Assembly: GCA_005778835.1 (NCBI GenBank)
Contig: SXMG01000001.1
Coordinates: forward strand, 1 to 42,703
From: Actinomycetota bacterium
GTDB taxonomy: Bacteria; Actinomycetota; Actinomycetes; Actinomycetales; Microbacteriaceae
DNA: 42,703 bases
Direction of reading: 5' to 3'
In this document: piece after piece, positions 27,901 through 40,518 of the stretch
How positions within the stretch are numbered: position 1 is the first letter of the stretch
Layout of the letters: each line of letters begins with the position of its first letter
The notes under the pieces: model-generated
What the model was told of the DNA's origin: nothing
Databases searched by the model: none
The model's input: the letters and a program-made list of their open reading frames with translations, nothing else
Translations under genes and position numbers: made by a program

Positions 27901-28495
27901 GCCCGGCATGGACTTCGCGGGCTTCGATGCCGCGCGCGCCGGCGCCGTGAGCGACCAGCACGCCTGGGACGACGAGTTCGGCATCGCGCGCGATGCGAGC
28001 GAGCTCGGCGGCTCGGTCGCGCACGTCGTCGAGCGCAACGTCCTGCGGTACCGCCCGACCCGCGTGACCGTGCGCGCGGCCGAGGGCGCGACGATGCACG
28101 ACCTCGTGCGGGTGCTGCTCGCTGCGGCTCGCGCCGGGTCGCGCGTCGAGATCAGCAGCGCGACCCCGCTGCCCGCGAGTCTGCTCGCGCTGCTCGACAC
28201 GGGCACCTCGACACTGCGCGCGGCCTCGATCGCGATCGAAGCGGATGCGCGGTTCGCCGAGCGCATGCGGGATGCCCGCCCCGCCCGCATCCGCCTCATC
28301 GCGCCCGACGGCGCAGCCGTGGCACGCGCCCTGCACGAGTCGCTCGACGGCGACCCCGATGTCGCCATCTGGTCAGGGCCGGTGACGGCCGCGGGCCGCG
28401 TCGAGCTGTTGCCCTTCCTGCGCGAGCAGGCCGTGTCGATGACGGTGCACCGCTTCGGCAACCCGTTTCCGGCGCTGGCCGAGGTCGAGCTCTAG
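24962..28495 (+). CDS. putA: Bifunctional proline dehydrogenase / L-glutamate gamma-semialdehyde dehydrogenase
   Basis: PRODH region (RLNINLLGEAVLGDAEADRR, VKVSAI, RVVKGANLAMERVD) and ALDH region (PPWNFPVAIPAGGVLAALAAGSAVIIKPAPQ, GHAGQKCSAASLAI, YVNRGTTGAIVRRQPFGGWKRSSVG). Confidence 0.93.
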   Translation: MTLDRSTAARDADSGDADSAVGLVRQWLRQTEGVKPDASAARLGGLLQDPVGLDFAIGFVDRVARPDDLRVAGRNLEELARSIPSFLPWPLRVLIAIGGPLARLLPWPIVPIARRVLRGMVGHLVIDATPNRLGRTLERLRGEGDRLNINLLGEAVLGDAEADRRLAGITELVKRPDVDYVSVKVSAIVSQLSMWAFDETVERVVERLTPLYDTAALGVNPTFLNLDMEEFRDLDLTIEVFQRLLDRPALKNYEAGIVLQAYLPEALPALDRLTSWAQARRAAGGAGIKVRVVKGANLAMERVDAALHDWPVAVLPSKRDSDANYKRVLDAALRADRVDAVRIGLAGHNLFDIAWAWKLAEGRGVTEGVEVEMLLGMAPDQADAVRRTVGHLLLYTPVVHPSDFDSAISYLIRRLEENASTDNFLSGVFELTSSPEIFEREEQRFRDSLSAFEAAPGAPVRHRVQNRLDERPLDQYDALPVPGGVRSGFENAADTDPALPSNREWGRAILQRAQTTTRGQALVDASGVASVGAIERIVAETREAGAGWAARSVDDRAGILHRAGRMLAARRADLLEVMAAEAGKTLAEGDPEVSEAIDFAHYYAESARDLARIDDATFTPVRLTLVVPPWNFPVAIPAGGVLAALAAGSAVIIKPAPQVRRSAAVMVEALWDAGVPRDVLRYVDVPENEIGQALVAHPAVDRLVLTGAWETAALFRSWRPELPILAETSGKNAIVITPSADIDLAVADLVKSAFGHAGQKCSAASLAILVGSVATSERFERQLVDAVTTLRVGSALDPTTVVGPLIEKASGKLLGALTRLAEGEEWLVQPRALDATGSVWSPGVKRGVADGSEFHMTEYFGPVLGLMRARDLDEAIDLQNATPFGLTAGLHSLDADEVEHWLDQVQAGNLYVNRGTTGAIVRRQPFGGWKRSSVGGSTKAGGPSYVMNFGTFAPVPREPRESLSLRGLDRGVRAVLEASQPGMDFAGFDAARAGAVSDQHAWDDEFGIARDASELGGSVAHVVERNVLRYRPTRVTVRAAEGATMHDLVRVLLAAARAGSRVEISSATPLPASLLALLDTGTSTLRAASIAIEADARFAERMRDARPARIRLIAPDGAAVARALHESLDGDPDVAIWSGPVTAAGRVELLPFLREQAVSMTVHRFGNPFPALAEVEL

Positions 28496-30033
28496 CTCGC
28501 TAGAGCCTCGGCGATGACCTCGCCGATGAGCACGGCACTGGCGGCCGGGCCACCCGTCGGAGTACTCGGCAGCATGCCCACATCGGCGACGTGCAGGCTC
28601 CGCGCCCCGTGCACCGCACCGCGACCATCGACGACCGACGTCGTGGGATCAGAGCCCATCGCCGTGGTGCCGCACGTGTGAAGGGCCGTCGACAGGTGCG
28701 CGAGCACCCAGGCATCGAGCTCACGGTCGTCGAGAGCAGTGAGGTTCGCATGCTCGGACCTCGCGCCCAGCTCGCGCATCGGGTCGCTGGTGAGAAGTGC
28801 GCTTGCGAACCGGGCCGCGGAGCGAAGAAGAGCTCGATCGATCTCGGTCTCGGCGTAGTGAAAGCGCACGTGCGGCGGCGCGCTGACGTCGACCGGGTCA
28901 AGGGCGAGGTGACCGCGAGCGTCGTGACGCAGCGTCGAGACCAGCAGACTCAGGTGGTTGTCGAGCGGGTCGGTGCCCAGCATTCCCGAGAGTGGACGCA
29001 GGAACGACAGCACCTCGATGTCGCCCGCTACCACCTCTGCTCCCAGCCCGGTGGAGGCATGCAGGGCGACACCGAGCGGAATCTCGACACGGTGGCGGTG
29101 AATCGACGCTGGCACCGTGAAGCGCAGGTCGAGGTTCGGGTGATCGCTCAGTCTCGCGCCCACCGCAGGTGAGTCGTGCACGACGGGGAGGTCGCGGTCG
29201 CGCAGCATCGCTGCGGGCCCGATGCCGCTGATGAGCAGCAGGTGCGGTGTGGCGATGGCACCCGCGCTGAGCACGACGAGCCCAGCGCGAAACGACTCGA
29301 TGCGACCTGTCACGAGTGCGCGCACTCCGACGGCACGCCCGTGCTCGAGCATGACCGAGACCACGTGGTGTCCGCCGCGCACGTCGAGGCGTGCAGGTGC
29401 CCCATGGGTATCGACCGCACGATCGAGATAGGCGCGGGCCGTGCTCCAGCGCTCGCCATCGTGTGTGTTCGTGGGAGTCGCTCCTACGCCGGGGTTCGCG
29501 TCGGGGCTGGAGTTCTTGTCGGGCTCGAGGGGCAGCCCTGCGGCGAGACCGGCCGAGACGAGAGCCGCGCTGACAGGGTGGGAGAGGTCTGCTCGCGACA
29601 CCGGCATGGGCCCCTGAGACCCGTGCCCCGCCGTGCCGCCGAACTCGCGGTCGTTCTCGATGCGGGGCCAGATCGCAGCGGTGCTCGATGCGCTCCAGCG
29701 CTCGTCGCCACTCTCGGCGGCCCAGCGGTCGAGATCGTGTGCTCTGGGGCGTCGAAAGTAGGCCCCGTTGATCGCCGTCGAACCACCAGATACCCGGCCG
29801 CGCGTCACTGTGTGCGGCCGACCACTCGTGAGCTCAGAGGGGTACGAGAAGGCAAGTGGATGACCCGGCATCGCCGCGGCGAGACGTGACGCATCGCGCG
29901 TCTCGCGAGGCGCCGGCACGGGCCCCGCTTCGAGCACGAGTACCGACAGCCCGCGCTCGGCGAGGCGCGCTGCCAGCGGAGCACCCGATCCGCCTGCTCC
30001 GACGACGAGCACGTCGGGCAGCGCGGGAGTCAT
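28492..30033 (-). CDS. mftG: GMC family oxidoreductase, mycofactocin-associated MftG
   Basis: DVLVVGAGGSGAPLAARLAERGLSVLVLEAGP; TRGRVSGGSTAINGAYFRR; LSAGAIATPHLLLISGIGP; C-terminal VADVGMLPSTPTGGPAASAVLIGEVIA; overlaps mftR. Confidence 0.88.
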   Translation of the reverse strand: MTPALPDVLVVGAGGSGAPLAARLAERGLSVLVLEAGPVPAPRETRDASRLAAAMPGHPLAFSYPSELTSGRPHTVTRGRVSGGSTAINGAYFRRPRAHDLDRWAAESGDERWSASSTAAIWPRIENDREFGGTAGHGSQGPMPVSRADLSHPVSAALVSAGLAAGLPLEPDKNSSPDANPGVGATPTNTHDGERWSTARAYLDRAVDTHGAPARLDVRGGHHVVSVMLEHGRAVGVRALVTGRIESFRAGLVVLSAGAIATPHLLLISGIGPAAMLRDRDLPVVHDSPAVGARLSDHPNLDLRFTVPASIHRHRVEIPLGVALHASTGLGAEVVAGDIEVLSFLRPLSGMLGTDPLDNHLSLLVSTLRHDARGHLALDPVDVSAPPHVRFHYAETEIDRALLRSAARFASALLTSDPMRELGARSEHANLTALDDRELDAWVLAHLSTALHTCGTTAMGSDPTTSVVDGRGAVHGARSLHVADVGMLPSTPTGGPAASAVLIGEVIAEALAS

Positions 30034-30662
30034 CACGGGGGGCCGGACTCGTCGAGCAGCATGAGGTCGCGCGCGGCGAGAAAGCCTTCGTCGAGCAAGT
30101 CGCTGAGCGAGGCATCGGGATGGGCCAGCCACTGCTCGTAGGCGGCGATCGACACCCCCAGGCACACCCAGGCGATGGTCTGCGGTCGAAGCTCGCCGGG
30201 CGAGCCGCCCAGGCGCTCGGCGACGAAGTCGGCGATGACCTGTCGCCAGGAGGCATAGCGGATCGTGGAGTGCGCGACGAGGGAGGGCACCGTGAGCAGC
30301 AGCGTCATGCGCTCGCGGTGGTACTGCAGCTCGTCGGCCGGAATGTGGTTGAAGACGACGATGGCGATGCGGAGGGCATCCCGCAACGGAAGGCTGCGCG
30401 GAAGAGAGTGCAGGTGATCGCGCATGCCCCGCAGCATGTCGTCGAACTGACCCCAGGGCAGATCGTTCTTCGAGGGGAAGTAGCGGAAGAACGTGCGGCG
30501 CCCGATGCCGCACGCGCTGGCGATCTCGTCGACGGTGACCCGGTCGAACCCGCGATCGATGAACAGCCGAAGGCCCGTGTGGCTGATCTCCGCATGCGTG
30601 GTGGCGGGGTGGCGGCCGATGCGCACGACCGGATTCGACGCTCCTGCTATGAGTTCACTCAC
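30033..30662 (-). CDS. mftR: TetR family regulator of the mycofactocin system, MftR
   Basis: RLFIDRGFDRVTVDEIASACGIGRRTFFRYFPSKNDLPWGQFDDMLRGMRDHL; divergent from mftA. Confidence 0.88.
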   Translation of the reverse strand: MSELIAGASNPVVRIGRHPATTHAEISHTGLRLFIDRGFDRVTVDEIASACGIGRRTFFRYFPSKNDLPWGQFDDMLRGMRDHLHSLPRSLPLRDALRIAIVVFNHIPADELQYHRERMTLLLTVPSLVAHSTIRYASWRQVIADFVAERLGGSPGELRPQTIAWVCLGVSIAAYEQWLAHPDASLSDLLDEGFLAARDLMLLDESGPP

Positions 30663-30766: not shown

Positions 30767-30871
30767 ATGAGCGTTCCCGGTACCCCCACTCCCGCGGTCG
30801 TCGACGAGCTCGTCGAAGAGGAATCGCTGGTCGAAGAAGTCTCGATCGACGGAATGTGCGGCGTCTACTAG
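30767..30871 (+). CDS. mftA: Mycofactocin precursor peptide MftA (34 aa)
   Basis: MSVPGTPTPAVVDELVEEESLVEEVSIDGMCGVY*; RBS AAAGGAG at 30754-30760; canonical IDGMCGVY C-terminus; directly upstream of mftB. Confidence 0.95.
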   Translation: MSVPGTPTPAVVDELVEEESLVEEVSIDGMCGVY

Positions 30872-30877
30872 GCCCTC

Positions 30878-31168
30878 ATGGACGCCGTCACTCTGGATAG
30901 CACGCTCGTCGTTCACCCCAGGGTCTCGATTCGACCCGAACCCTTCGGAGCTCTGCTGTACCACTTCGGCACGCGTCAGCTGAGCTTTCTGAAAGACCTC
31001 ATGCTGCTCGAGGTTGTGCAGGCTTGCGACGGAACTCGCACGTTGGATGAGGCGCTTGCCGTGGCCGGCGTGCCCGACGCGCACATCGAGCGCTATCGGC
31101 GCGCGGTCGCAACCCTCGTGCGGTCGACGATGCTGCAGCAGCACGCAGCGAGCGAGGTGGCGGCATGA
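30878..31168 (+). CDS. mftB: Mycofactocin RiPP recognition/chaperone protein MftB (PqqD-like)
   Basis: LVVHPRVSIRPEPFGALLYHFGTRQLSFLKDLMLLEVVQACDG; between mftA and mftC. Confidence 0.93.
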   Translation: MDAVTLDSTLVVHPRVSIRPEPFGALLYHFGTRQLSFLKDLMLLEVVQACDGTRTLDEALAVAGVPDAHIERYRRAVATLVRSTMLQQHAASEVAA

Positions 31169-32466
31169 CGCTCGTCGCCCCGGCCTCGACCACGGCCCTG
31201 CCGACGTCGGCCGCTCGCACGTCGAGCACCCTCATCGGTCACTTCGAGCGCGGTCTCGATGCACCGATCTGCCTGACATGGGAGCTCACCTACGCCTGCA
31301 ACCTGTCGTGCAGCCACTGCCTCTCGAGCTCGGGCCGCCGCGACCCGCGCGAGCTGACCACCGACGAATGCAAGGGCATCATCGACGAGTTGCAGCGCAT
31401 GCAGGTGTTCTATGTGAACATCGGCGGCGGTGAGCCCACCGTGCGCAGCGACTTCTGGGAGCTCGTCGACTATGCCACTGCGCACCAGGTCGGAGTGAAG
31501 TTCTCGACGAACGGCGTGAAGATCACGCCCGACGTCGCACAGCGTCTCGCCGCGAGCGACTACGTCGACGTGCAGATCTCGCTCGATGGTGCCACGGCCG
31601 AGGTCAACGACCGTGTGCGCGGCCCTGGCTCGTACGACCTGGCGATGCGCGCCATGCAGAACCTCGCCGACGCAGGTTTCAGCGGCTTCAAGATCTCGGT
31701 CGTCTGCACGCGCGAGAACATTCCGCAACTCGATGAGTTCAAGGCCATCGCCGATCGCTTTGACGCCCAGCTGCGCCTCACCCGGCTGCGGCCGAGCGGG
31801 CGTGGTGCCGACGTGTGGGACGACCTGCACCCGCTGCCGCACCAGCAGCGCGAGTTGTACGACTGGCTCGTCGCCCACGGCGACGGCGTGCTCACCGGCG
31901 ACTCGTTCTTCCACCTTTCGGCGTTCGGAGAGGCGCTGCCCGGCTTGAACCTGTGCGGCGCCGGCCGGGTTGTGTGCCTCATCGATCCCATCGGTGATGT
32001 CTACGCGTGCCCGTTCGCTATCCACGACGAGTTCCTCGCCGGCAGCATTCGCGAGCCAGGGGGATTCGAGGCGGTCTGGCGCGAGAGCGAACTCTTCCAG
32101 CGCCTGCGCGAACCCACCGGAGGAGGCGCATGCGGCAGCTGCTCGTTCTACGACTCGTGCCGCGGCGGCTGCATGGCGGCCAAGTTCTTCACCGGACTGC
32201 CGATCGACGGCCCCGACCCCGAGTGCGTGCGCGGCTTCGGCGAGCAACTGCTGGCTGAGCGGTCGACGGATGCGGTGCCGAAGCCCACGGGCGACCACTC
32301 GCACCGCACGTCGCCGCCCCGGCCGCGCGGCTCGACAGGGCCCGTTCCCCTCACCCTCAGCGTGCGTCGCCCCGGGGCCGCCCCCGTGCATGCCTGCGCC
32401 GAGAGCCCTCTGGCCGGCTTCGCGCCCACGGTGTCGAACGACTGCGCCTGCGGGGGCGCTCACTAA
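31165..32466 (+). CDS. mftC: Mycofactocin radical SAM maturase MftC
   Basis: LTWELTYACNLSCSHCLSSSGRRDP (CxxxCxxC); NIGGGEPTVRSDFWELVDYATAHQVGVKFSTNGVKI; SPASM CGAGRVVCLIDPIGDVYACPF and CGSCSFYDSCRGGCMAAKFFTGLPIDGPDPEC. Confidence 0.96.
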   Translation: MTLVAPASTTALPTSAARTSSTLIGHFERGLDAPICLTWELTYACNLSCSHCLSSSGRRDPRELTTDECKGIIDELQRMQVFYVNIGGGEPTVRSDFWELVDYATAHQVGVKFSTNGVKITPDVAQRLAASDYVDVQISLDGATAEVNDRVRGPGSYDLAMRAMQNLADAGFSGFKISVVCTRENIPQLDEFKAIADRFDAQLRLTRLRPSGRGADVWDDLHPLPHQQRELYDWLVAHGDGVLTGDSFFHLSAFGEALPGLNLCGAGRVVCLIDPIGDVYACPFAIHDEFLAGSIREPGGFEAVWRESELFQRLREPTGGGACGSCSFYDSCRGGCMAAKFFTGLPIDGPDPECVRGFGEQLLAERSTDAVPKPTGDHSHRTSPPRPRGSTGPVPLTLSVRRPGAAPVHACAESPLAGFAPTVSNDCACGGAH

Positions 32467-34359: not shown

Positions 34360-35193
34360 ATGGGACGGTTGGACGGAAAAGTCGTACTCATCTCGGGCGT
34401 CGCCCGCAGCCAGGGACGCAGTCACGCACTGAGGTTTGCCGAAGAAGGCGCCGACGTGATCGGCTTCGATTTGCTCGATGAGATCAAGGGCTCGCCATCG
34501 GCGCCCGCGACGCAGGCGGACATGGACGAGACGGTGCGGCAGGTCGAAGCACTCGACCGACGCATCGTCGCGACCAAGGCCGACGTGCGCGACATGGCCG
34601 CCGTGAAGGCCGCCGTCGACGAGGGCGTCGCGCAGCTCGGTCGCCTTGACGTCGTGCTCGGCAACGCCGGCGTGTTCACCGCGCCGTCGCTCGCCGAAGA
34701 CATGGAGGACGACATCTTCATGGACACCCTCGACATCAACGTTGCGGGAGTCTGGCGCACGGCGAAGGCGGCCATTCCGCACCTGAAGAAGAACGAGAAC
34801 GGCGGGTCGATCATCATCACGAGCTCGGTCGCCGGGCTCATGGGCTACCCGAACTTCGCGCACTACGTGGCGTCGAAGCACGCGGTCGTCGGGCTCATGC
34901 GTACCCTCGCGCTCGAGCTCGCGCCCCACCACATCCGCGTGAACTCGGTGCACCCCGGCTCGGTGAACACCGTGATGGTGACTAACGACACCATTGCGCG
35001 TCTGTTCCGGCCCGACCTCGAGAATCCGACGGCAGCCGACTTCGCCGAAGCGGCAAAGCAGATGAATCCCATGGGCATCGAGATGCTCGAGTCGTACGAC
35101 ATCTCGAACGCGATGGTGTTCCTCGCTTCCGACGAAGCCCGCTACATCACGGGCGTCACCCTGCCGGTCGACGCCGGAACGATGGTCCAGTGA
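34360..35193 (+). CDS. Mycofactocin-coupled SDR family oxidoreductase 3
   Basis: MGRLDGKVVLISGVARSQGRSHALRFAEEGADVIGFDLL; YVASK; AGAAAGGA RBS. Confidence 0.92.
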   Translation: MGRLDGKVVLISGVARSQGRSHALRFAEEGADVIGFDLLDEIKGSPSAPATQADMDETVRQVEALDRRIVATKADVRDMAAVKAAVDEGVAQLGRLDVVLGNAGVFTAPSLAEDMEDDIFMDTLDINVAGVWRTAKAAIPHLKKNENGGSIIITSSVAGLMGYPNFAHYVASKHAVVGLMRTLALELAPHHIRVNSVHPGSVNTVMVTNDTIARLFRPDLENPTAADFAEAAKQMNPMGIEMLESYDISNAMVFLASDEARYITGVTLPVDAGTMVQ

Positions 35194-36104
35194 CCCCTGA
35201 ATCCACCGTCTCGGCGAGTCGGCAACGGGTCGCTGAGCACCTCGTCGGCCGCGAGCGTGAGGTCGAACTCACGCTCGCGGCCGTCGCGGCCGGCCGAGAC
35301 ATCGTGCTCGAGGGCCCGCCAGGAACGAGCAAGACGACGATGCTGAAGGCCATCACCGACGAGTGGGGGATTCCGCTCATGTTCGTCGAGGGCAACGCCG
35401 ACCTCACGCCGGCGAAACTGGTGGGGCATCACAATCCGTCGCGCGTGCTGCGCGAAGACTATTCGCCCGACAACTTCGTGGCGGGCCCGTTGACTGAGGC
35501 CATGCAGACCGGCGGCTTTCTCTACATCGAAGAGTTCAACAGAGCCCCCGACGACACCCTCAACACGCTGCTGACGGCGATGGCCGACCGCAGGCTCGCT
35601 ATTCCGCGGGTGGGCATGATCGAGGCACTGCCGACCTTTCGCGTGATCGCCTCGATGAACCCCTACGACAACGTCGGCACCACCAAGCTGTCGTCGTCGA
35701 TCACCGACCGGCTCAACCGTCTGTCGGTCGACTACCAGAACGCCGAGGCCGAAGAGCGCATCGTGCATTTGCGGGCGAAGCCCGAGGGGGCGCTCGCCGA
35801 CCGGCTCGTGGCCGACGCCGTCGCCGTGACGCGCGCGACGCGCGAGCATCCGTATGTCCGACAGGGGTCGAGCGTGCGCGGCGCCATCGACCTCGTCGCG
35901 GTGGCGGTGCAGCTCGCCGAGCTGCGCTCGATCGAAGCGACCGACGATTCGCGCTACCCCGAGCTCGTCTTCGACTCGATGGTCGTGTCGCTGTCGGGGC
36001 GCATCCACATCGACGAAGCCGTCGACATTTCGCCCGAAGCCGTCTTGCGCGAGATCTGGCAAGACCACTTCGTGCTCGACCCGGCATTGGCTGAGCCGGG
36101 ATGA
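35190..36104 (+). CDS. MoxR-family AAA+ ATPase
   Basis: Walker A GPPGTSKTTML; Walker B FLYIEEFNRAP; GTG start overlaps SDR3 stop. Confidence 0.9.
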   Translation: MTPESTVSASRQRVAEHLVGREREVELTLAAVAAGRDIVLEGPPGTSKTTMLKAITDEWGIPLMFVEGNADLTPAKLVGHHNPSRVLREDYSPDNFVAGPLTEAMQTGGFLYIEEFNRAPDDTLNTLLTAMADRRLAIPRVGMIEALPTFRVIASMNPYDNVGTTKLSSSITDRLNRLSVDYQNAEAEERIVHLRAKPEGALADRLVADAVAVTRATREHPYVRQGSSVRGAIDLVAVAVQLAELRSIEATDDSRYPELVFDSMVVSLSGRIHIDEAVDISPEAVLREIWQDHFVLDPALAEPG

Positions 36105-36110
36105 AGAGAA

Positions 36111-37091
36111 CTGCAGGTCGAGTCGCCGATTCAGCGCAAGCGGCCCGGTCAGCGATCGACCACGCCCAGTCGACCCCTCCCGCGCACTCCGAAGCAGCTC
36201 GACCAGAAGCCGACGGTCTTCGAGCCGGGGCAGGGCGGGGCCGGCATGGTGTTCCGCGCGCGTCCGGGGACTCAACCAGGGCACCAGAAGCAGCGCGCGG
36301 GAGGCACGGCAGAGGGGTTCACCGACGAAGTCGCCGAGCTGGTGCCGATCGACGCGACCGGAACCCTCGACCCGGCCGTGCGCGCACTGGCGCGGCAGAT
36401 CGCGTCGAGGCTCATGATTCCGCGACCGAAGAAAGACTCGCGGTCGCAGCGCGGATCAGGAGCGCTCGCGAGTGTTCCCTATCGGCGCGGCAGCGACGAG
36501 ATCGACCTCGACAAGACGATCGAGATGCTCGCCGAGAAACCGGTGCCCGACGACGAAGACATCATCGTGCGCGAGCGCGTGCGAACGCGCCGTTCGCTCG
36601 TGCTCGTCGTCGACGTGTCGGGTTCTATGAAGGGCGAGAGGATTCGCACGGCAGCGGCGATCGTCGGCGCTCTCGCCGGCGAGCTGGCGAACGACGACCT
36701 GGCACTCATCGCGTTCTGGTCGGATGCCGCCGTCCTGCAGACCTTCGGCCAGCATCAGAGCCCCGACCGGCTGCTCGATCTGCTGACGAGCATTCCGACA
36801 CGGGGACTCACGAACGTGGGTTTTCCGCTCGAGCTGGCCGCGAAAGAGTTGCGCAAGCGGCCTGCGCGCGATGCCCGGGTGCTGCTGCTGTCAGACTGCG
36901 TGCACAACGCCGGCCCAGACCCGCGGCCCATTGCTGCCCTGCTGCCCCGACTCGACGTCATGCTCGACCTGAGCGGCGAGCACGACACCGACCTCGCTCG
37001 CGAACTGACGCGGGCCGGCCGTGGTGTCATGCAGACCGTGCTGACGCATCGTGATGTCGCGACCGCCCTCACCCGCATCTTCGCGTCGTAG
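36111..37091 (+). CDS. VWA-domain (CoxE-like) protein, MoxR partner; 5' end uncertain
   Basis: MIDAS LVLVVDVSGSMKGERIRTAAAIVGALAGEL; first in-frame ATG at 36246 but the coding-like frame runs up to the moxR stop, with CTG at 36111. Confidence 0.8.
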   Translation: MQVESPIQRKRPGQRSTTPSRPLPRTPKQLDQKPTVFEPGQGGAGMVFRARPGTQPGHQKQRAGGTAEGFTDEVAELVPIDATGTLDPAVRALARQIASRLMIPRPKKDSRSQRGSGALASVPYRRGSDEIDLDKTIEMLAEKPVPDDEDIIVRERVRTRRSLVLVVDVSGSMKGERIRTAAAIVGALAGELANDDLALIAFWSDAAVLQTFGQHQSPDRLLDLLTSIPTRGLTNVGFPLELAAKELRKRPARDARVLLLSDCVHNAGPDPRPIAALLPRLDVMLDLSGEHDTDLARELTRAGRGVMQTVLTHRDVATALTRIFAS

Positions 37092-37143: not shown

Positions 37144-38316
37144 ATGAGCAGAAACGCCTGGTTCGAGACCGTCGCCGAGGCGCAGCGTCGAGCCAAGAAG
37201 CGGCTGCCTAGCCCGGTCTACGGTGCTTTGATCGCCGGATCGGAGAAGGGCGTCACCCTCGACGACAACATTGCCGCCTACAGCGAGCTGGGCTTCGCCC
37301 CGCGCATCGCCGACCACCACGCGCAGCGCGACCTGTCGACCTCGGTGATGGGCATCGATATCGCGATGCCCGTGATCATCTCGCCCACCGGAGTTCAGGC
37401 CGTGCACCCGCAGGGCGAGGTCGCCGTCGCCCGAGCGGCCGCCAACCGAGGCACGATCATGGGGCTCAGTTCGTTCGCGTCGAAAGCGGTCGAAGATGTC
37501 GTCGCGGCGAACGCCAACACGCTCTTTCAGGTGTATTGGAGCGGAGAGCGCGACGAGATGGTGCACCGCCTCGAACGCGCGAAAGCGGCCGGAGCCAAGG
37601 GTCTCATCGCGACCCTCGACTGGTCGTTCTCGCACGGGCGCGACTGGGGAAGCCCGCAGATTCCCGAGAAGCTCACGCTGGGCGCTGCGATCAATTTCGC
37701 CCCGCACGCTCTGCCGCGCATCCCGTGGCTGTGGAGTTTCGCGAAGACCTTCCGCATTCCCGATCTCAAGGCGCCGAACCTGAAGCCGAAGGCGGGCGGA
37801 GAGCCGCCGACGTTCTTCGGCGCCTACGGCGAGTGGATGGGAACGCCGCCGCCCAGCTGGGACGACGTGAAGTGGCTGCGCGACCAGTGGGACGGCCCGT
37901 TCATGCTCAAGGGCGTCGGCCGCATCGACGACGCCAAGCGCGCGATCGACATCGGCGCGACGACGATCTCGGTCTCGAACCACGGCGGCAACAACCTCGA
38001 CACGATTCCTGCGCCGATCCGCATGCTGCCGGGCATCGCCGAGGCGGTGGGCGATCAGATCGAGATCGTGCTCGACGGCGGCGTGCGCCGCGGTTCTGAC
38101 GTCGTCAAGGCGGTCGCGCTGGGCGCTCGGGCCGTCATGATCGGCCGCGCCTACCTGTGGGGCCTCGCCGCCAACGGGCAGGCGGGGGTCGAGAACGTGC
38201 TCGACGTCATGCGCAACGGCATCGACTCGGCACTGCTCGGCCTCGGTCGTGGATCGCTCGGCGAGCTCTCGCGCGACGACATCTACGTGCCCGAGGGCTT
38301 CGAGAAGATCCGCTGA
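37144..38316 (+). CDS. mftD: Mycofactocin biosynthesis FMN-dependent deaminase MftD
   Basis: FMN-dependent alpha-hydroxyacid dehydrogenase-like: MPVIISPTGVQAVHPQGEVAVARAAANRGTIMGLSSFAS; VSNHGGNNLDTIPA; VLDGGVRRGSDVVKAVALGARAVMIGRAYLWGLAA. Confidence 0.94.
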   Translation: MSRNAWFETVAEAQRRAKKRLPSPVYGALIAGSEKGVTLDDNIAAYSELGFAPRIADHHAQRDLSTSVMGIDIAMPVIISPTGVQAVHPQGEVAVARAAANRGTIMGLSSFASKAVEDVVAANANTLFQVYWSGERDEMVHRLERAKAAGAKGLIATLDWSFSHGRDWGSPQIPEKLTLGAAINFAPHALPRIPWLWSFAKTFRIPDLKAPNLKPKAGGEPPTFFGAYGEWMGTPPPSWDDVKWLRDQWDGPFMLKGVGRIDDAKRAIDIGATTISVSNHGGNNLDTIPAPIRMLPGIAEAVGDQIEIVLDGGVRRGSDVVKAVALGARAVMIGRAYLWGLAANGQAGVENVLDVMRNGIDSALLGLGRGSLGELSRDDIYVPEGFEKIR

Positions 38317-38362: not shown

Positions 38363-39076
38363 GTGACGCGACTCGACGAGACGCCCTGGCCGGGCATCCC
38401 GGCCCAGCCCCTGGTGATCGTGCCACTCGGTTCGACCGAGCAGCACGGGCCGCACCTGCCGTTCGACGTCGATGCGCGCATCGCGGCGGCGGTGGCGCAG
38501 GCGGCGGGTGCGCGACTCGGCGCGGTCGTCGCCCCGGTGCTGGCATACGGTTCGAGCGGAGAGCACCAGCAGTTCGCGGGCACACTCTCGATCGGTCGGG
38601 ATGCACTGCGCATGCTGCTGGTCGAGCTCGTGCGCTCGGCGCGCACGTGGGCGCCGCGAGTCGCTCTGGTGACCGGGCACGGCGGCAACGCGCCGGTGCT
38701 GTCGGAGGTCGTGCCGACTCTGCGCGGCGAAGGCCATGACGTGGCCTGGCTGGCGTGCGGCGCGCCGGCGACGATCGACCCGCCTGCCGACGCGCACGCC
38801 GGACGACTCGAGACCGCCCTCATGCTGCACCTCGAGCCGACGCGCGTCGGCCCCTTCGACGACGTGGTCGGCGCGACGACTCCGCTCGCCGAACTCATGG
38901 GCGAGCTCGAAGCGGGACGATTGCGCGAGGTGACGCCCACTGGAGTGCTCGGTGACCCTCGCGGTGCGACCGCGGCAGAAGGGCGCGCCCTGCTCGCGGC
39001 ACTCGTCGACGATGCCGTCGGCCGCATCGAAAAGTGGAGCATCGGTGCGCGCGGTCTACTGCGAGCGGAGTGGTGA
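38363..39076 (+). CDS. mftE: Mycofactocin creatininase-family peptidase MftE
   Basis: VIVPLGSTEQHGPHLPFDVDARIA; YGSSGEHQQFAGTLSIG; TGHGGN; GTG 38363. Confidence 0.93.
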   Translation: MTRLDETPWPGIPAQPLVIVPLGSTEQHGPHLPFDVDARIAAAVAQAAGARLGAVVAPVLAYGSSGEHQQFAGTLSIGRDALRMLLVELVRSARTWAPRVALVTGHGGNAPVLSEVVPTLRGEGHDVAWLACGAPATIDPPADAHAGRLETALMLHLEPTRVGPFDDVVGATTPLAELMGELEAGRLREVTPTGVLGDPRGATAAEGRALLAALVDDAVGRIEKWSIGARGLLRAEW

Positions 39077-40518
39077 GCGGGCGACTGCCCGACGGCTTCG
39101 TCGTGCGACTCAACCGGCGCACCCACGTTGCCGATCGCGGCGCGACGCTCGTCGGAGGGGTTCCGACCCGGGTGCTCTACCTGACCGCCCTCGCACGGGC
39201 TCTGCTCGAGCCCGACCGAGCCCACCGCGACCGCCTCGTCGTTCGCTCCGCCGCGAGTGCGGCGCTCGCCGAGCGGCTGCTCGAGGCGGGCATCGCCGAC
39301 CCCGTGGTGGCCGAGCTGCCTGATCCTCACGGCTCGGCGGCGGGGGAGCCACTCGCAGCCGTGACGGTGGTCGTGCCTGCGCACGATCGGCCCGAGGCGG
39401 TCGCGCGGCTGCTGGCGAGCATCCCGGCGTCGGTGCCGGTGATCGTCGTCGACGATGCCTCGCAGCGGCCCACGGCGGTGCGCCGCGTCGTCGAGCAGCA
39501 CGGAGGAAGACTCATCGCGCTGCGACAGAACGTCGGTCCGGCCGGCGCGCGCAACGCGGGACTCGCCGCCGTCACCACCCCGTTCGTGGCGTTCATCGAC
39601 AGCGACATGGTGATCGATGCCGACACTCTGCCGCTGCTGCTGCGGCACTTCAGCGACCCGCGCGTGGGGCTCGTGGCTCCGCGGGTGGCAGGCCTGGAAC
39701 CGGCCGAAGGGCCGAACTGGATCACCCGCTACGAGGCCGCCCGCTCATCGCTCGACCTCGGGTCAGAACCCGCGAACGTGCGCCCCGGTGCGAAGGTGTC
39801 ATGGCTGCCGGCGGCCTGCCTCGTCGCGCGCACCGAGGCCATCGGAATCGGGTTCACGCCGGGGATGCGGGTAGCCGAAGACGTCGATCTCGTGTGGCGG
39901 CTCGTCGACGCAGGGTGGCGCGTGCGCTACGAGCCCGCGGTCGAGGCGCGGCACGAGCATCGGCGCACTGTGCTCGATTGGCTCGGTCGCAAGGCGTACT
40001 ACGGCACCGGAGCCGACGACCTCGCCGCGCGCCACGGTGACACCGTCGCGCCCGCCGTCTACACGCCGTGGACCCTCGTGTTCGTCGGTGCCCTGCTGGC
40101 CCAGCGGCGCTGGTCGCTGCCCGTCGCCGTCGGGGCCGCCGCCGTCGCTGCCGTGCGCATCGGCTCGCGTTTGCGGCCCACGCCCGACCGAGCGCGCATC
40201 GCCCTGCGGCTCACCGGCCAGGGGGCGCTCGCCGCCGCCGCGCAGAGCGCTGAGCTGCTGACCCGTCACTGGTGGCCGCTCGCGGTGGTCGGCTCGTTCG
40301 CGTCACGGCGGCTCCGTCGGGCGACCGTCGTCGCCGCCGTCGCTGACGCGGTCTACGAGCATCGTCGCACCGAGACCGGCATGGGCCTGCTGACGTTTGC
40401 AGTCGCGCGCCGGCTCGACGACCTCGCCTACGGCGCCGGGCTGTGGTGGGGTGCCGTGCGCGCGCGGTCGATCCGGGCGCTCAGGCCGGTGGTGCGGCTG
40501 CGGTCGCGCCTCCGGTAG
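39073..40518 (+). CDS. mftF: Mycofactocin glycosyltransferase MftF
   Basis: VTVVVPAHDRPEAVARLLASIPASVPVIVVDDASQRP; PAGARNAGLAAVTTPFVAFIDSDMVID; GTG overlaps mftE stop. Confidence 0.93.
   Translation: MSGRLPDGFVVRLNRRTHVADRGATLVGGVPTRVLYLTALARALLEPDRAHRDRLVVRSAASAALAERLLEAGIADPVVAELPDPHGSAAGEPLAAVTVVVPAHDRPEAVARLLASIPASVPVIVVDDASQRPTAVRRVVEQHGGRLIALRQNVGPAGARNAGLAAVTTPFVAFIDSDMVIDADTLPLLLRHFSDPRVGLVAPRVAGLEPAEGPNWITRYEAARSSLDLGSEPANVRPGAKVSWLPAACLVARTEAIGIGFTPGMRVAEDVDLVWRLVDAGWRVRYEPAVEARHEHRRTVLDWLGRKAYYGTGADDLAARHGDTVAPAVYTPWTLVFVGALLAQRRWSLPVAVGAAAVAAVRIGSRLRPTPDRARIALRLTGQGALAAAAQSAELLTRHWWPLAVVGSFASRRLRRATVVAAVADAVYEHRRTETGMGLLTFAVARRLDDLAYGAGLWWGAVRARSIRALRPVVRLRSRLR

Follow-up and report, generated by a model that had tools for sequence, protein, structure and literature searches.

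A MoxR-VWA module with a conserved in-frame UGA codon adjoins dehydrogenases of actinobacterial mycofactocin systems and may act as their remodelling machine

A 42,703-nucleotide stretch of contig SXMG01000001.1 (assembly GCA_005778835.1, Actinomycetota bacterium), hereafter the window, contains a complete mycofactocin cluster in which a gene for a MoxR-family AAA+ ATPase (moxR) and the coding sequence of a VWA-domain protein are located between a short-chain dehydrogenase/reductase (SDR) gene, SDR3, and mftD. The original prediction had described moxR and vwa as adjacent genes, with Walker A and Walker B motifs in the ATPase, a DVSGS metal ion-dependent adhesion site (MIDAS) in the VWA protein and a GTGA overlap in which the GTG start of moxR lies inside the TGA of SDR3 (35190-35193). 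All of these features were seen, and the order, with vwa directly after moxR and before mftD, was confirmed, but vwa did not hold up as an independent gene: it lacks any obvious start codon and continues moxR in frame behind a conserved UGA.

Domain searches, Walker motifs and fold identified the moxR product as an AAA+ ATPase of the CbbQ/NorQ group. It matched Pfam AAA_5 (E = 2e-23) and AAA_3 (E = 3e-14), both Walker motifs were invariant or almost so among the 38 relatives compared, Foldseek placed its fold nearest CbbQ and NorQ (E = 7.6e-19 and 1.8e-18), and a sequence profile match to CbbQ was obtained (E = 2e-17). The VWA domain matched VWA_2 (E = 4e-15) and VWA_CoxE (E = 4e-9), its top structural matches were VWA chains of NorD, and its MIDAS is complete, the DVSGS being followed by the T and D of the DxSxS-T-D pattern within a VWA fold. 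Residues 302-326, which contain the UGA-encoded position, form a disordered linker in the predicted model. Two other assignments were rejected: PADLOC, consulted for a defence system, gave weak IetA matches for the ATPase and none for the VWA protein, and the NCBIfam MadB-family ATPase model scored 54 bits against a cut-off of 475.

The stop codon of moxR is in the same frame as the VWA region, which is open from the very next codon. A single in-frame UGA was present in 89/89 SDR-linked loci of the clade, with TAA or TAG in none, and a separate class-level sample queried with the read-through protein added 10 full-length matches, all containing a single internal TGA. The codon is kept across Microbacteriaceae, Micrococcaceae, Streptomycetaceae, Kineosporiaceae, Geodermatophilaceae and Nocardiaceae. 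Its context in the SDR-linked clade is CCN-GGN-UGA-AGR, the Pro-Gly codons ahead of the stop being nearly invariant with free third positions. Among 80 unique junctions, UGA and an A at position +4 were each found in 80/80 and AGR (AGA or AGG) as the next codon in 79/80, whereas the stops of neighbouring genes were UGA in 339/534 (63%), with +4A in 73/534 and a following AGR in 10/534. Since AGR makes up 6% of the arginine codons in genes of these loci, the context is kept at the RNA level as well. The sole unique junction lacking AGR has AAA (Lys) after the UGA and belongs to Nesterenkonia alkaliphila (L076). Sequencing error as the source of the UGA was ruled out by its occurrence in 89 loci from many assemblies, and a frameshift at the junction is unnecessary because moxR and VWA share a frame. 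In Microbacterium elymi (L088, 10895 onward) the UGA context is retained and the VWA frame shifts soon after, owing to either a sequencing error or decay.

Both pN/pS (the ratio of nonsynonymous to synonymous polymorphism) and codon usage indicated coding immediately after the UGA. For the first nine codons the VWA frame gave a pN/pS of 0.377, compared with 1.01 and 2.20 for the two alternative frames; the value for the last 20 moxR codons was 0.306. Serine at a given position alternates between TCN and AGY codons, which is a protein-level signature. No start codon for the VWA region is conserved across loci: six loci have no ATG, GTG or TTG within the first 60 codons, and their earliest possible start is at codon 78-109. 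In Rhodococcus, RefSeq places the VWA start 45 nt past the stop on one plasmid (R. qingshengii) and 144 nt past it on another (R. ruber). Annotated starts are inconsistent and internal, and constructs cloned from such annotations would lose part of the linker as well as the fusion.

Homologues with a sense codon at the position of the stop were also found. Locus L180 (genome G707) encodes the protein without interruption, His occupying the position of the stop in a gap-free alignment (PG-H-IALDADNPIQ against PG-stop-RELQVESPIQ in the window), and locus L179 (G648) likewise encodes an unbroken MoxR-VWA fusion. These two SDR-linked fusions stand beside the UGA clade in the tree (bootstrap 84-86; Shimodaira-Hasegawa-like approximate likelihood ratio test, SH-aLRT, 97-99), a position that would fit a fused ancestor with a single gain of the UGA. 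A conserved stop in a conserved context, in-frame coding selection after it and sense-codon homologues are the features by which readthrough is recognized, and programmed readthrough of this UGA is likely. Behind an SDR gene, L181 (8629-11545) and L182 (7420-10265) have a separate MoxR followed in tandem by a MoxR-VWA fusion, which amounts to the same two products by gene duplication. Among relatives linked to alcohol dehydrogenase (ADH) genes, L183, L184, L185, L186, L198 and L209 have MoxR and VWA fused in a single open reading frame of 620-673 aa, with a linker unlike that of the SDR clade.

The original prediction would have failed had the pair not accompanied mycofactocin genes beyond this genome, but the co-occurrence proved strongly positive. 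A scan of one genome per species returned 147 MoxR relatives, and most of the best 80, which were read, were inside mft operons with at least one TIGR03971-like SDR gene directly upstream and VWA directly downstream. This arrangement recurs in more than 80 genomes and is therefore not attributable to chance. In a family sample of 300 genomes, mftC was present in 20 and MoxR in 18, 16 of them with both (Fisher p = 5e-21), and in a phylum sample of 397 genomes the numbers were 53, 30 and 27 (p = 6e-24), both tests being uncorrected for shared ancestry. Furthermore, mftC was present somewhere in the genome in 24 of 26 checked genomes with a MoxR locus, which had been picked mostly because the fetched MoxR stretch contained no mftC. 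That the MoxR-VWA pair belongs to mycofactocin systems as a conserved component is nearly certain. Rhodococcus, Williamsia and Aldersonia carry the SDR-MoxR-VWA unit apart from the mft genes. No mftC was found in the genomes of L071 and L176 (Homoserinimonas), L060 (Cryobacterium sp. Y50) and L177 (G132), whose clusters carry mftR, SDRs and MoxR-UGA-VWA, some also with mftD and mftF; either mycofactocin is taken up in these organisms or the SDRs work without it. Herbiconiux without mftC has already been recorded (PMC11778925, the MftG paper).

An SDR or an N,N-dimethyl-4-nitrosoaniline (NDMA)-type ADH had been named beforehand as a possible target, and these are exactly the two families found directly upstream of MoxR across the phylum. 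The upstream gene encoded a TIGR03971 SDR in 81 of 117 clade members and a TIGR03989 NDMA-dependent ADH in 26; two had a tandem MoxR, and the other eight had another gene or none. A TIGR03971 SDR was confirmed in 34/34 tested members of the closer clade, and the deeper clade usually has the ADH (family confirmed in 18/18 tested). The genes overlap by 4 nt at 26/83 SDR-moxR junctions. As a control, 32 other MoxR loci were examined (28 in twelve clade genomes, four in the assembly that contains the window); none had such an SDR or ADH in the fetched flank, which rules out a general neighbour bias of MoxR genes. SDR-linked and ADH-linked units can occur in one genome, either near each other (L179) or apart (G562, G379). 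The SDR group includes Geodermatophilus aquaeductus (L110, 9880-9990), in which the upstream SDR has shrunk through an in-frame internal deletion to a remnant of 36 codons joining its N- and C-terminal ends. A Trujillonella genome (G303) has an ADH-linked MoxR (L288, 2768-3586; 55% to the ADH-type query) and also a UGA-type MoxR-VWA without an adjacent SDR.

SDR and medium-chain dehydrogenase/reductase enzymes are unrelated families, and NDMA-dependent ADHs are nicotinoproteins. In crystal structures of TIGR03971 SDRs, an insertion buries a non-exchangeable nicotinamide adenine dinucleotide (NAD) (PMC5264612). Mycofactocin dependence and non-exchangeable NAD are shared by the two unrelated partner families, which would point to a trapped cofactor, rather than a metal, as their common problem. 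In the window, SDR3 is the most likely client.

These observations make it reasonably probable that mycofactocin-dependent nicotinoprotein dehydrogenases have a dedicated AAA+ remodelling machine in this module, which is encoded in a single frame containing a programmed leaky UGA. Termination at the UGA would be the usual outcome and yield the 304-aa MoxR, and a minority of ribosomes would decode the UGA, probably by means of tRNA-Trp given the A that follows, and produce a 633-aa MoxR-linker-VWA fusion. In E. coli, tRNA-Trp is described as misreading UGA particularly readily when the next base is A (PMC5289835). The two products may form mixed hexamers with about one VWA each, as in CbbQ6O1; roughly that ratio, with the VWA tethered, would result if ten to twenty per cent of ribosomes read through. 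In CbbQO each CbbQ hexamer carries one CbbO, and the authors of that work anticipate a single VWA per ring as a general rule (PMC4660213). The MIDAS of the VWA domain would then grip the adjoining SDR, and ATP-driven ring movement would open the dehydrogenase around its trapped NAD, so that NAD is loaded or a damaged or dead-end cofactor is expelled. If the rest of this scheme is accepted, action on the trapped cofactor has slightly better than an even chance of being correct. We propose more tentatively, at somewhat below even confidence, that readthrough of the conserved UGA determines the proportion of AAA+ subunits that carry a fused VWA relative to free ones, and that the resulting asymmetric hexamer would be the first activase known to act on trapped-NAD enzymes, serving two unrelated dehydrogenase folds; such an activase could follow both folds because it would act on the non-exchangeable cofactor they share.

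The closest known parallel in MoxR fold and complete MIDAS is the rubisco activase CbbQO, for which a CbbQ6CbbO1 stoichiometry was measured and which strips inhibitors from the active site of its enzyme (PMC4660213). The present module differs in that its client, judged by gene linkage, would be a nicotinoprotein dehydrogenase, its VWA region extends the AAA+ gene in frame beyond a UGA, and it lacks the N-terminal region of about 550 residues found in CbbO. NorQ/NorD (PMC13036017, PMC9976466) and CoxD/CoxE are also alike, NorQ and NorD being best or near-best structural matches, and a finger-in-pore mode has been proposed as general for MoxR/VWA pairs from NorQ/NorD (PMC13036017, PMC9976466). 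Those systems, however, insert metal into metalloenzymes, are encoded by two separate genes and have no mycofactocin link. The recoded chlD gene of Mg/Co chelatase similarly yields a short AAA+ and a long AAA+-integrin/VWA subunit and has fused homologues in other taxa (PMC9227772, PMC3711429), but through -1 frameshifting instead of an in-frame UGA, in another AAA+ family (chelatase) and for another client. Prokaryotic in-frame stops under purifying selection, with a conserved downstream frame, have been described for nonsense substitutions generally (PMC7918605), whereas here one stop in a fixed context is kept across several families. SDRs of the family found upstream of moxR are those reported to hold non-exchangeable NAD (PMC5264612), and the literature found described no helper ATPase for them; the pair was not found in the loci checked in mycobacteria, where TIGR03971 SDRs were studied. 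Likewise, no published description of MoxR-VWA in mycofactocin systems or of UGA recoding of MoxR was found, nor any related account joining mycofactocin with MoxR or MoxR with readthrough.

Several results weigh against the proposed machine or limit its reach. The case for readthrough is comparative throughout, and the purine-rich UGAAGR is compatible with reinitiation too. No stimulatory RNA structure was detected, RNAalifold predicting no pairs; single-sequence folding energies downstream of the UGA were slightly below those of codon-shuffled controls (mean z -0.62). In most ADH-linked members MoxR and VWA have a gene each, so the two need not always be covalently joined and tethering is one solution among several. 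Eight of the 117 clade members adjoin neither an SDR nor an ADH, and a few genomes retain SDR-MoxR-VWA without any mftC. In mycobacterial-family loci with NDMA-type ADHs, from genomes with mftC, the pair adjoins 0/20, so it is not needed by every nicotinoprotein. A rival possibility is that two proteins are made by termination at the UGA and reinitiation at a non-conserved start (for instance codon 3, 9, 37 or 48), the VWA protein acting alone as in NorQD/CoxDE and the shared frame being a leftover of an ancestral fusion. The annotated Rhodococcus starts, the purine-rich context, the mostly separate genes of ADH-linked relatives and the disordered linker around the UGA would all suit reinitiation. 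A downstream start, however, does not explain protein-level selection on the first nine codons; the start codons are not conserved and are missing from the first 60 codons at six loci; and the UGA never varies, even though UAA or UAG could terminate translation just as well. We therefore regard reinitiation as unlikely and prefer readthrough.

A metal-loading chaperone in the manner of NorQD/CoxDE, delivering for example zinc to an ADH or a distal enzyme, would agree with the NorQ and NorD folds, the VWA_CoxE match and the zinc-type fold of TIGR03989 ADHs. It was judged quite unlikely, since one partner family, the SDRs, is not a metalloenzyme family: TIGR03971 SDRs, the commonest partner, are not known to require a catalytic metal. 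SDR-linked modules show neither a conserved metalloenzyme neighbour, as the original prediction had remarked for the window, nor two genes with starts of their own. In the window, as in many Microbacteriaceae, the module lies between SDR3 and mftD; this location together with co-occurrence with mftC could instead suggest service to mycofactocin biosynthesis (MftD, MftC or MftF), but this is improbable given that Rhodococcus, Williamsia, Aldersonia and others keep the unit away from all mft genes, that some genomes have the module without mftC, and that separate SDR-linked and ADH-linked copies occur in one genome. The single invariant in-frame UGA might also recall selenocysteine insertion or genome-wide reassignment, a very improbable reading. 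Selenocysteine was rejected on the scarcity of SelB, above cut-off in 3/24 genomes and not found in the window's own 81% complete assembly, and on the absence of a conserved structure resembling a selenocysteine insertion sequence; moreover, fusion L180 has His rather than Cys aligned to the UGA. Against reassignment, UGA is the commonest ordinary stop of neighbouring genes.

The conserved UGA is a larger finding than the mycofactocin association. If the proposed machine exists, a rare programmed stop-codon readthrough has been kept across several families of Actinobacteria, its logic being one VWA per AAA+ ring, and together with chlD frameshifting and the gene-duplication lineages this suggests that recoding is a recurrent way of building asymmetric AAA+ rings. 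Mycofactocin systems would then have an ATP-driven maintenance step of which no description was found, and how nicotinoproteins acquire, repair or refresh their permanently bound NAD would become a testable question.

The window comes from a 2.46-Mb assembly, and its closest relatives in collections are Microbacteriaceae, Microcella among them. On the plus strand the cluster reads mftA, mftB, mftC, three TIGR03971 SDR genes, moxR, VWA, mftD, mftE and mftF, and the minus strand bears mftR and an mftG-like gene. The products of mftA, B, C, D, E, F and R all exceeded their NCBIfam cut-offs, and MftG was clearly the top match of the mftG-like gene at a score under its cut-off.

Table. Positions of the genes, motifs and codons of the mycofactocin cluster in the window
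Feature	Position	Strand	Remarks
mftG-like GMC oxidoreductase	28492..30030	-	Best match TIGR03970, 338 bits (cut-off 387, below)
mftR regulator	30033..30662	-	NCBIfam
mftA, mycofactocin precursor peptide	30767..30871	+	34 aa; NCBIfam
mftB	30878..31168	+	NCBIfam
mftC, radical SAM maturase	31165..32466	+	NCBIfam
SDR1, TIGR03971	32538..33344	+	NCBIfam
SDR2, TIGR03971	33444..34277	+	NCBIfam
SDR3, TIGR03971 mycofactocin-coupled SDR	34360..35193	+	4-nt overlap with moxR
moxR, MoxR-family AAA+ ATPase, CbbQ/NorQ type	35190..36104	+	304 aa, short product
Walker A GPPGTSKT	35313..35336	+
Walker B FLYIEE	35517..35534	+
In-frame UGA, candidate readthrough codon	36102..36104	+	Context GAG CCG GGA UGA AGA
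VWA extension	36105..37091	+	328 codons up to TAG; VWA domain with MIDAS, preceded by a flexible linker
Nine codons after UGA, RELQVESPI	36105..36131	+	Protein-level selection in VWA frame
First in-frame ATG, codon 48	36246..36248	+	Gene callers' likely start; not conserved
MIDAS motif DVSGS	36612..36626	+
mftD	37144..38316	+	NCBIfam
mftE	38363..39076	+	NCBIfam
mftF glycosyltransferase	39034..40518	+	NCBIfam

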